Assembly (NCBI GenBank): GCA_902605445.1
Contig: CACLCL010000008.1
Span: forward strand, 1-41,528
DNA: 41,528 nucleotides
Reading direction: 5' to 3'
Source of the DNA: an uncultured Bacteroidota bacterium
GTDB lineage: Bacteria; Bacteroidota; Bacteroidia; Flavobacteriales; Flavobacteriaceae
Below are positions 702 to 18,110 of the stretch, piece by piece (the first letter of the stretch is position 1; each line of letters starts with the position of its first letter). The position numbers were made by a program, and so were the translations under genes. Below the pieces are notes generated by a model, which ran no database searches, was not told the DNA's origin, and saw nothing but the letters and a program-made list of their open reading frames with translations.

Positions 702-1502
702 ATGTCTAAACGAATTACAAGCGCAAGTAATAAAGAAATTAAATATTTAAATAAACTTTTAATAAAATCTTCTTTTAGAAAAAAAGAGAGGAAATTTGTT
801 GTAGAAGGAAAGAGGGAAATTATAATGGCAGTTGAAAATGGATTTAAAATCCTCAAATTGTATTACAATCCGAACATAATCGACGTAAACAAATTTTCAA
901 TCGAAATAGATTGTGATATCATTGAATTAAGTGATTCTGTATATTCTAAAATTAGCTATCGTAAATCTACTGAGGGATTGATAGCTGTCTACAGCATGAG
1001 AGATTATTTATTAAAATTGGATAACACTAATAACAACTTGGCACTTGTGTTAGATGGAATTGAAAAACCAGGAAATCTTGGTGCTATTTTGAGAACTTGT
1101 GATGCAACTAATGTAAGTGTTATTATATTAACAAATCATAAATGTGATATTTTTAATCCAAATGTAATAAGATCAAGTTTGGGGGCTGTATTCTCTAAGT
1201 TGATAATCTCAATGCGCTCTGATGATGCGTATACTTTTTTTAAAAAAAATAATTATTCCATTTTTTCTACATCGAGTAAAGCCAAAAAAATGTATGATAA
1301 AGTAAATTTTAAAAAATCATGTGCAATTGTTGTTGGATCTGAAAAAAAAGGGATATCTGATTTCTGGAAAGAAAAGTGTTGTGAATTAATTAAATTACCA
1401 ATGTTAGGTAAAATTAATTCTTTAAATGTTTCTGTTTCAGCTGCAATAATCCTGTATGAAGTTAATCGTCAAAGAAATAGTAAAAAAAATAGTTTTAAAT
1501 AG
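702..1502 (+). CDS. TrmH/SpoU-family RNA 2'-O-methyltransferase
   Basis: A 266-residue SPOUT-class methyltransferase that should transfer a methyl group from S-adenosylmethionine to a ribose 2'-OH in rRNA or tRNA. The three family motifs are visible: KPGNLGAILRT (residues 122-132, catalytic Asn125 and Arg131), VVGSEKKGIS (210-219), and LNVSVSAAIILYE (241-253), which form the knotted SAM site. The N-terminal 100 residues resemble the SpoU substrate-binding domain, with a KFVVEGKREI start typical of the RlmB/TsnR branch. The ATG follows the previous stop codon with no spacing. The exact target nucleotide cannot be read from sequence, so no gene symbol is given. Length is normal for the family. 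Confidence 0.92.
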   Translation: MSKRITSASNKEIKYLNKLLIKSSFRKKERKFVVEGKREIIMAVENGFKILKLYYNPNIIDVNKFSIEIDCDIIELSDSVYSKISYRKSTEGLIAVYSMRDYLLKLDNTNNNLALVLDGIEKPGNLGAILRTCDATNVSVIILTNHKCDIFNPNVIRSSLGAVFSKLIISMRSDDAYTFFKKNNYSIFSTSSKAKKMYDKVNFKKSCAIVVGSEKKGISDFWKEKCCELIKLPMLGKINSLNVSVSAAIILYEVNRQRNSKKNSFK

Positions 1503-13195: not shown

Positions 13196-13942
13196 TTAAG
13201 ATGAGTATGTAGCATAGCTTGTGCTTACTGGAGATGATATTTCAAATAATCTTGAATTTTTATGAGTTTGAATTTGAACTGAGTCTGAGTTAGAAATAGT
13301 AAAAAAATCTCCTTTGTAAATATTGTTGCCACCAAGTTTTAAATAACCATCGATTAAAAAGTATGAGTGAATTTTATTTTTTGATAAGTTTAAAGATGAC
13401 TTAGAATCTTTAAGAAAAATATATTCATTTATAATCACATTCTCAGAATCGATAGACATTATTGAATTTGAATTTAAAATGTGAGTTATAATTTTATCTT
13501 TACTTTTAGTTATTTTAAAATCTTCTTGCTTGTAATCATTATAAGAAGCTGGCTTTAACAATGATTGGGAAAGTCCTGGATCAAACCAAATTTGAAAAAT
13601 TTCAGATTGTTCTAGAATTTCTTCAGAGTGAGATATTCCACTTCCAGATCTAATAACTTGCACATCTCCTTCTTCCAATTGGATCCAATTTTTTAATTTC
13701 GTGTCAAAGTGATTAATCTTTCCTTTAATTACAAATGTGAAGATTTCAAACCCTTTGTGCGGGTGGAGTCCGATTGTACTTTTTTTGTTTGAAGTAAATG
13801 CGTGAGCCCAATAAAAAATATTTGAATAAGGTTTTAGCTGACCATTATCATGGGGGAAACCAATGGGTTTTTTTTCTAAAATTTCCCCAAAATTAAAACT
13901 CCCATCAACTTGAGTTTTTTTTGGATAAAGATTAATTATCAT
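13196..13942 (-). CDS. Pirin family protein (bicupin)
   Basis: A 248-residue protein with two cupin-like halves. The metal site of the N-terminal cupin is complete: His60 and His62 in GLHPHKGFE, His105 and Glu107 in SGSGISHSEE, matching the four ligands known in human pirin and E. coli YhhW. Some bacterial pirins have quercetin dioxygenase activity, others bind metabolic enzymes; the function here is unknown. The second half lacks an evident metal site. The gene overlaps the end of the upstream FMN-reductase-like gene by 11 bases, so the two are expressed together. Length is slightly above YhhW and below human pirin. Confidence 0.9.
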   Translation of the reverse strand: MIINLYPKKTQVDGSFNFGEILEKKPIGFPHDNGQLKPYSNIFYWAHAFTSNKKSTIGLHPHKGFEIFTFVIKGKINHFDTKLKNWIQLEEGDVQVIRSGSGISHSEEILEQSEIFQIWFDPGLSQSLLKPASYNDYKQEDFKITKSKDKIITHILNSNSIMSIDSENVIINEYIFLKDSKSSLNLSKNKIHSYFLIDGYLKLGGNNIYKGDFFTISNSDSVQIQTHKNSRLFEISSPVSTSYATYSS

Positions 13943-14477
13943 CTAAAATAGATTGAAATTTAGATAAAACAAAATTGAATTCCTCATTCAAACTTAAATT
14001 TTTTATACCGTCAGTTTCACTAAAATTATCATAAAAATTAGGCAAGGAAAAGGACGGAATTGGGTATATATAATCAAGAGAAAATCTCTTGTGAGCAGTT
14101 TCTAGAATTGTTTTGCCTCCTCTAGCACCAGTTGATGTTGAAAGTAATAAAATAGGTTTGCTACTCCATACATCATTCTCAATAACCGAAATCCAGTCAT
14201 AAATATTTTTAAAAGCGGCTGTATAAGAGCCATTGTGTTCAGCTAAAGAAAGTATAATACCGTCCGAATCAGAAATATACCTTTTGAATAACATAGCTTT
14301 ATGAGGTATTCCATCAATCTCCTGACGGTCTTCACTATAAATTGGCATTTCATAATTAGTTAAGATTAATTCCTTGATATCACAATTTATAGTAAGTGAT
14401 TTAGCTGCATAATATGCAAATTTTCTATTAATCGAATTTGTGGAGCTGCTAGCCCCAATTGTGACGATATTTTTCAA
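13932..14477 (-). CDS. NADPH-dependent FMN reductase-like flavoprotein
   Basis: A 181-residue flavodoxin-like protein. The N-terminal strand and phosphate loop IVTIGASSSTNSINRK binds the FMN phosphate; SLAEHNGSYTAAFKNIYDW (around residues 77-95) is the typical loop at the isoalloxazine ring, followed by KPILLLSTSTGARGG. Relatives reduce FMN, quinones, azo dyes or chromate with NAD(P)H; the physiological substrate is not evident. The start has to be TTG at 14477: an in-frame stop lies three codons upstream and no ATG occurs until far inside the fold. The gene begins one base after the stop of a CDGSH microprotein gene and overlaps pirin at the other end, so the three form a compact redox unit. 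Confidence 0.88.
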   Translation of the reverse strand: MKNIVTIGASSSTNSINRKFAYYAAKSLTINCDIKELILTNYEMPIYSEDRQEIDGIPHKAMLFKRYISDSDGIILSLAEHNGSYTAAFKNIYDWISVIENDVWSSKPILLLSTSTGARGGKTILETAHKRFSLDYIYPIPSFSLPNFYDNFSETDGIKNLSLNEEFNFVLSKFQSILDDN

Positions 14478-14478
14478 T

Positions 14479-14562
14479 TTATTTTAGCTTATTTTGGTGA
14501 GAACCATCACAATATCCTTCTGGATTTTGTGTATTTCCACATCCGCATTTTGGTCTATCCAT
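14479..14562 (-). CDS. 27-residue CDGSH-like iron-sulfur microprotein
   Basis: A very short ORF, ATG at 14562, TAA at 14479-14481, coding 27 residues. It contains CGCGNTQNPEGYCDGSH (residues 6-22), which closely follows the CDGSH 2Fe-2S motif CxCx2(S/T)x3PxCDG(S/A/T)H: ligands would be Cys6, Cys8, Cys18 and His22. The interval between the second and third Cys is one residue longer than in mitoNEET (10 rather than 9). A TAA codon lies in frame one codon before the ATG, so no longer form is possible. It sits 55 bases after the yidC stop and ends one base before the TTG start of the flavin reductase gene. The ordered motif in such a short ORF is unlikely by chance. Cluster binding and function are inference. 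Confidence 0.75.
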   Translation of the reverse strand: MDRPKCGCGNTQNPEGYCDGSHQNKLK

Positions 14563-14569
14563 GGTTTAA

Positions 14570-14585
14570 ATTTGTGATAACAAAT
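14570..14585 (-). promoter_or_regulatory. Palindrome upstream of the CDGSH microprotein gene
   Basis: A 6-4-6 inverted repeat (ATTTGT, GATA, ACAAAT on the plus strand) lies in the 55-base gap between yidC and the CDGSH gene, ending 7 bases before the CDGSH ATG. It could be an operator or an mRNA hairpin that separates yidC from the redox genes. No good -7 promoter element was found next to it, and its arms are AT-rich, so chance cannot be excluded. Confidence 0.25.
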
Positions 14586-14617
14586 CAAAGTTTATGCCAT
14601 TGATATTTAACTATAAG

Positions 14618-18110
<3,493 letters not shown>

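Follow-up and report, generated by a model that had tools for sequence, protein, structure and literature searches.

A 27-residue CDGSH-like microprotein of Flavobacteriaceae, its relatives in other bacteria and their association with YceI and flavin reductase genes

The closest described relatives of the microprotein presented here are the CISD/NEET proteins (PF09360; types 3, 4 and 6 in PMC3174974). The available part of PMC3174974 describes a CDGSH loop of 17 residues, with a Pro11 called universally conserved, together with an N-strand and a lid-proline motif. The module is stated there to require a beta-sandwich and the loops to come in pairs, and the proteins included have 53, 75 and 79 residues. 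The consensus spacing of the motif is given in the accessible part of PMC5859297; in the form C-x-C-x2-(S/T)-x3-P-x-C-D-G-(S/A/T)-H it places eight residues between the second and third Cys. A second described system concerns the gene neighbourhood. In Bacillus subtilis and Staphylococcus aureus, MarR/DUF24 and MarR repressors govern quinone reductases, nitroreductases and dioxygenases, and the available portion of this account of the YodB, CatR and MhqR regulons includes no CDGSH microprotein (PMC6798810).

The window (the whole stretch of DNA analysed, 41,528 nucleotides) comes from an uncultured member of the Flavobacteriaceae with a genome of 1.02 Mb that is 68% complete. It contains the following features.

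13196..13942, minus strand: Pirin-family gene (Pfam Pirin, 55.3 bits), with an 11-base overlap with the reductase gene
13932..14477, minus strand: NADPH-dependent FMN reductase-family gene with a TTG start at 14477 (Pfam FMN_red, 85 bits)
14479..14562, minus strand: 27-amino-acid CDGSH-like microprotein ORF, ATG to TAA, read from the sequence
14497..14547, minus strand: motif C-x-C-G-N-T-x4-G-Y-C-D-G-S-H of the microprotein
14585..14599, minus strand: conserved element TGGCATAAACTTTGA, promoter-like and similar to a sigma-54 -24/-12 site
14618..16474, minus strand: upstream gene, probably yidC-like, and boundary of the unit

The ORF product, MDRPKCGCGNTQNPEGYCDGSHQNKLK, has its ligands at Cys6, Cys8, Cys18 and His22, with five residues ahead of the first Cys, five behind the His, and nine residues instead of the usual eight between the second and third Cys. 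An in-frame stop leaves a single codon (Thr) before the ATG (open frame TMDRP...) and rules out an upstream extension. One base separates the TAA of the microprotein from the TTG of the reductase. The ORF, its ligands, its fixed upstream limit and the close packing of the three genes are all as the earlier note had read them. A degenerate DNA pattern for the motif has a single match in the window, and none of 100 dinucleotide-preserving shuffles has any.

Loci from the same genus were selected by their flavin reductase gene, blind to the microprotein. This gene is present in 16 of the 21 genomes (own genome included; 15 of the 20 others), and the five that do not have it are 56-82% complete. 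At 12 of the 16 loci an intact microprotein (25-28 residues, all four ligands present) lies before the reductase, and across the genus its stop and the reductase start overlap or are a few bases apart. The earlier note had tied the reality of the gene to an intact, conserved frame in relatives and to dN/dS. This holds for the 12 intact copies, which give pS 0.541 and pN 0.083, a ratio of 0.153 (uncorrected proportions). It does not hold for the other four loci: one copy is broken (L192, which is alike to L067, lacks an ATG and contains an in-frame stop) and at three loci no motif was found before the reductase (L184, L185 and L187). For the reductase itself pN/pS is 0.212 in 11 of the 12 loci with an intact microprotein (again uncorrected proportions), and for 22 distinct motif stretches from similarity searches it is 0.209. 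Motif values from the pattern scan described below are biased, since the pattern fixes most ligand columns. The seven columns that it leaves unfixed give 0.42 for the scan loci and 0.51 for the similarity loci, so selection appears to act mainly on the ligand frame. The microprotein is a real, selected gene, conserved as a protein in the genus and in other Flavobacteriaceae. It is also dispensable, because 187 of 199 Flavobacteriaceae genomes have no close relative of it and it is lost or broken at four of the 16 same-genus loci.

With the 27-mer as query, close relatives (E 5e-10 or better) were found in 12 of the 199 Flavobacteriaceae genomes, own genome included. In each genome the best locus (L001-L012) is a free-standing ORF that runs from ATG to TAA and encodes 27-30 residues; the alignment of these 12 rows has 11 invariant columns. 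Matches of any kind at E <=1 extend to 51 of the 199 genomes, 39 of them weakly: one of these carries a YceI fusion (L013) and the other 38 match at E 1e-3 to 1. The weak-match loci inspected (from the L014-L030 set) include ordinary CDGSH proteins with eight-residue spacing and stop-containing frames. A profile search of the order gave 28 of 395 genomes at E <=1e-6, counting the window's own, with another 10 at E up to 0.01. In a phylum sample of 395 genomes no genome other than that of the window matched at E <=1e-4, and the plasmid collection gave no match at E <=1.

A motif-pattern scan of GTDB species genomes returned at least 120 loci. The pattern fixes the spacing and most ligand columns in these loci (L062 on), and for this reason the scan informs on distribution and context, not on ligand conservation. 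Among the matches listed, 80 rows carry a title. They are mostly from Flavobacteriales or Bacteroidetes, including the Polaribacter isolates L071, L086, L110 and L120. Eight of them are from Bacillales (Paenibacillus, Brevibacillus), where the copies have 25-26 residues (for example, L092, MGKCACGNTQNAEGNCDGSHAKKDK, 25 residues), and seven are from Verrucomicrobia, with the modules in tandem.

L078, L090, L115, L116, L118, L131 and L135: verrucomicrobial two-module tandem proteins of about 54-63 residues

In the open-licence literature on CDGSH proteins, as far as the sources found extend, no title among the matches listed concerns such a microprotein family.

Standard domain models respond poorly to these proteins. 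Against zf-CDGSH, whose cut-off is 29.5 bits, the window 27-mer reaches 14.5 bits, aligned to model positions 32-48 of 48, and L129 scores 12.6 bits, also below the Pfam cut-off. NCBIfam gave nothing for the 27-mer at E <=1. A PF09360 search of whole genomes detected none of the 12 intact same-genus copies, which makes it likely that the family is overlooked in genomes, and a Pfam scan of 49 members found zf-CDGSH weakly in 32, DUF1922 in one and SEC-C in none. A low Pfam score, together with the one broken copy and the three absences in the genus, might suggest a spurious ORF or what is left of a full CDGSH gene in decay. We consider this very improbable in view of the purifying selection and of the start, stop and ligands kept over many genera. 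In addition, 10 of the 21 same-genus genomes have a separate full-length CDGSH gene above the Pfam cut-off; those inspected (L201, L202 and L204) encode about 60 residues with the normal eight-residue spacing.

What the microprotein has in common with CISD/NEET domains is the ligand order C-x-C...C-D-G-(S/A/T)-H, a Ser/Thr at position 7 with Asp14-Gly15, and the existence of tandem versions; its conserved T7, D14, G15 and S/T16 match the CDGSH motif as set out in the available part of PMC3174974. It differs in length, the free forms having mostly 25-30 residues against 53, 75 and 79 in that source. It also differs in the nine-residue interval between the second and third Cys, seen in the window copy and in the similarity finds L002-L013 and L031-L059 and imposed by the pattern in scan loci. 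Gly replaces Pro11 in 12 of 12 and 35 of 35 alignment rows (again pattern-imposed in scan loci). The N-strand and lid-proline motif of the CISD/NEET beta-sandwich dimer are absent and there is no room for them: other free forms mostly have three to about 10 residues before the first Cys, judged from predicted starts, with a longer predicted stretch in L048, L054, L055, L114 and L175. Finally, the linkage to YceI and HxlR/MarR genes (see below) sets the microprotein apart. A gammaproteobacterial protein, L077, carries one nine-spaced and one normal CDGSH loop, and this ties the nine-spaced variant to true CDGSH domains. Judged by its residues, the microprotein is not a CISD/NEET protein proper and would be a module-only variant of that kind. 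The suggestion that the longer Cys interval marks a minimal or new CDGSH type is supported by the ligand set and its conservation.

A profile search of PDB sequences gave two matches, 3tbn (E 0.16) and 3tbm (E 0.62). Both alignments contain a gap of one residue, and by their aligned letters we take both entries to be CDGSH structures. The AlphaFold2 monomer of L129 (30 residues, 49 alignment rows) reached pLDDT 66 and pTM 0.21, and that of the tandem protein L118 (nine rows) pLDDT 51 and pTM 0.28. Foldseek found no match in the PDB with the low-confidence L129 model.

Among the matches listed, the 120 scan loci comprise 121 ORFs: 89 free, 15 from Bacillales, 12 Verrucomicrobia-like, four fused and one gammaproteobacterial. 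The 89 free ORFs are mainly flavobacterial and include outliers such as L075 (titled Spirosoma) and the stop-containing L067 and L093. An in-frame stop inside the motif is seen at three different loci (L038, L067/L192 and L093), perhaps through decay, an assembly error or another cause. Neighbours were named by phmmer against single queries and some loci lie at contig ends, so all neighbour counts are lower bounds. A YceI gene lies within 100 bases upstream of the microprotein in 56 of the 89 free ORFs among the matches listed and a flavin reductase directly downstream in 16; 61 have one or the other, 11 have both and 28 neither. The genes beyond YceI differ between groups, which argues that the YceI association is not mere synteny. 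The earlier note had suggested that the microprotein is possibly an electron partner of the flavoprotein; in these counts YceI, and not the reductase, is the commonest neighbour, and such a partnership is only one of several possible roles. An HxlR regulator (a family we take to be DUF24) or a MarR regulator was found within 1.2 kb of 28 of the 89 free ORFs among the matches listed, and none in 61. Among the similarity finds, HxlR was confirmed by Pfam for L007.

These counts also bear on the idea that translation of a Cys-rich 27-mer, functionless as a peptide, makes expression of the reductase depend on cysteine, iron or redox state. The position of the ORF in the window and the genus, directly before the reductase with stop and start overlapping or nearly so, is what one would expect of such a leader peptide. 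However, most scan copies follow YceI and some modules are fused inside larger proteins, which makes it unlikely, and the purifying selection on the amino-acid sequence also speaks against it. We regard this explanation as improbable, though less so than that of a remnant.

In Bacillales no neighbour is common to most loci and most show no redox neighbour. In a Bacillales MAG (L081) MarR, microprotein and Flavodoxin_2 genes are consecutive; a nitroreductase gene lies downstream at L168 and L177 (by Pfam) and its homologue at L096; and a divergent LigB dioxygenase gene is found near the microprotein at L149. Another divergent neighbour is common to L096, L134, L151 and L177, and two downstream ORFs to L098 and L109.

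In the window, the promoter-like element TGGCATAAACTTTGA lies ahead of the unit. It resembles the consensus of a sigma-54 -24/-12 site, but its -12 part reads GA, where the consensus has GC. The form TGGCAYAANCTTTGAT precedes the unit at 14 of the 16 same-genus loci (it is absent from L187 and L188) and is still present in two of the three loci that have no motif. RpoN is encoded by 19 of the 21 same-genus genomes, and the yidC-like upstream neighbour recurs at L067 and L123. A looser promoter pattern has three exact matches in the window's own genome and none for a reversed control. Judged by eye, the other two matches are ahead of a thioredoxin-like lipoprotein (L200) and of another lipoprotein (L198). 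At L008, L119 and L152 the looser form lies ahead of the microprotein and also of a flavodoxin-like gene on the opposite strand, which in L008 is Flavodoxin_2 by Pfam.

L008, 1465-1479, plus strand, and 713-727, minus strand: element TGGCAY-A-N3-TTTGA, with an altered -12 part

One match of this element (L126) falls within a MarR-like coding frame. A palindrome just upstream of the microprotein ATG in the window (ATTTGT-TATC-ACAAAT, 14570-14585) was considered as a MarR operator and set aside: it is missing from the same-genus loci L183, L186 and L189 and is therefore probably due to chance. Palindromes ahead of YceI genes vary by group: some are of the GTTAC-N6-GTAAC type, those of some Polaribacter loci are of the TTTTCC-GGAAAA type, and at many loci inspected none was found before YceI.

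The module is also found as part of larger proteins. In L040, L041, L043-L047 and L053 the nine-spaced module forms the N-terminus of YceI precursors and is followed by a hydrophobic segment; the YceI identity of L040 was confirmed by Pfam, and in L041, for example, there is no Met between the module and the YceI part. In L013 and L038 YceI may start later, because a Met follows the module (L013) or a stop lies within it (L038). There are 10 YceI fusions among L001-L059, all near an HxlR gene and eight with a pirin-like gene downstream. Since the usual gene order is YceI-microprotein and the fusion order is module-YceI, these are not simple read-through products. RicT-like proteins of marine-type Flavobacteriales carry the module as a C-terminal tail, after a Lys-rich stretch (L050 and L056-L059; PSP1 by Pfam in L056). 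One ribosomal S16 protein with a long C-terminal extension has the module 20 residues before its end (L161, 4289-5011, minus strand). In B. subtilis, according to the available part of PMC6751060, RicT is a member of a complex that contains iron-sulphur clusters.

This portability, at or near the N- or C-termini of unrelated proteins, and the absence of the proline and of the beta-sandwich parts that known CDGSH domains have would also suit a zinc knuckle. The module would then bind Zn and no cluster and act as a stabilising or docking tag, whether free or on YceI, RicT-like proteins and S16. SEC-C, the metal-binding tail of SecA, is a comparable small tag and likewise a short Cys-rich module on the ends of unrelated proteins. 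In SEC-C, however, the His directly follows the third Cys, whereas in the microprotein it follows D-G-S, and in the Pfam scan the members resembled zf-CDGSH, if weakly, and never SEC-C. The His/Asp/Gly/Ser set of CDGSH and T7 are retained as in [2Fe-2S] domains, and the module is linked to redox genes. A Zn-binding docking tag is the main rival; we consider it rather unlikely, but far less so than a leader peptide.

Our best reading, with a probability of about 0.5, is that of a portable, module-only CDGSH variant that probably binds a [2Fe-2S] cluster and serves in quinone/electrophile-type redox stress. By analogy with known CDGSH domains, a single loop of this type, with three Cys and one His, would hold a labile [2Fe-2S] cluster; two loops would need to pair, in a homodimer or in the tandem form. 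In the window, a promoter of its own would drive the microprotein along with the flavin reductase and pirin genes. It could act as a small redox carrier, a cluster-based sensor or a docking module for proteins of quinone/electrophile stress. The microprotein loci have the same regulator families beside flavin-dependent reductases as the YodB/CatR (MarR/DUF24) and MhqR (MarR) regulons, in the available account in PMC6798810; YceI and pirin are extra compared with the Bacillus and Staphylococcus quinone regulons as described there. The Bacillales loci with nitroreductase (L168, L177) or LigB dioxygenase (L149) genes recall these quinone-stress regulons. A role restricted to quinones does not account for the fusions to RicT-like proteins and S16. 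We propose more tentatively that there is a widespread family of free [2Fe-2S] proteins of 25-30 residues, which would also serve as a redox tag on YceI, RicT-like proteins and S16, in quinone/electrophile defence.

If it binds a cluster, the microprotein would be a remarkably small iron-sulphur protein; with 25-30 residues the family would be among the smallest natural ones. A one-loop protein of this length would provide a natural scaffold of minimal size for a metal or [2Fe-2S] site. It would also directly test the argument, in the available part of PMC3174974, that CDGSH loops depend on a beta-sandwich and on pairing with another loop. Its link with YceI may also provide a handle on the YceI family. 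The role of YceI in bacteria is poorly understood.
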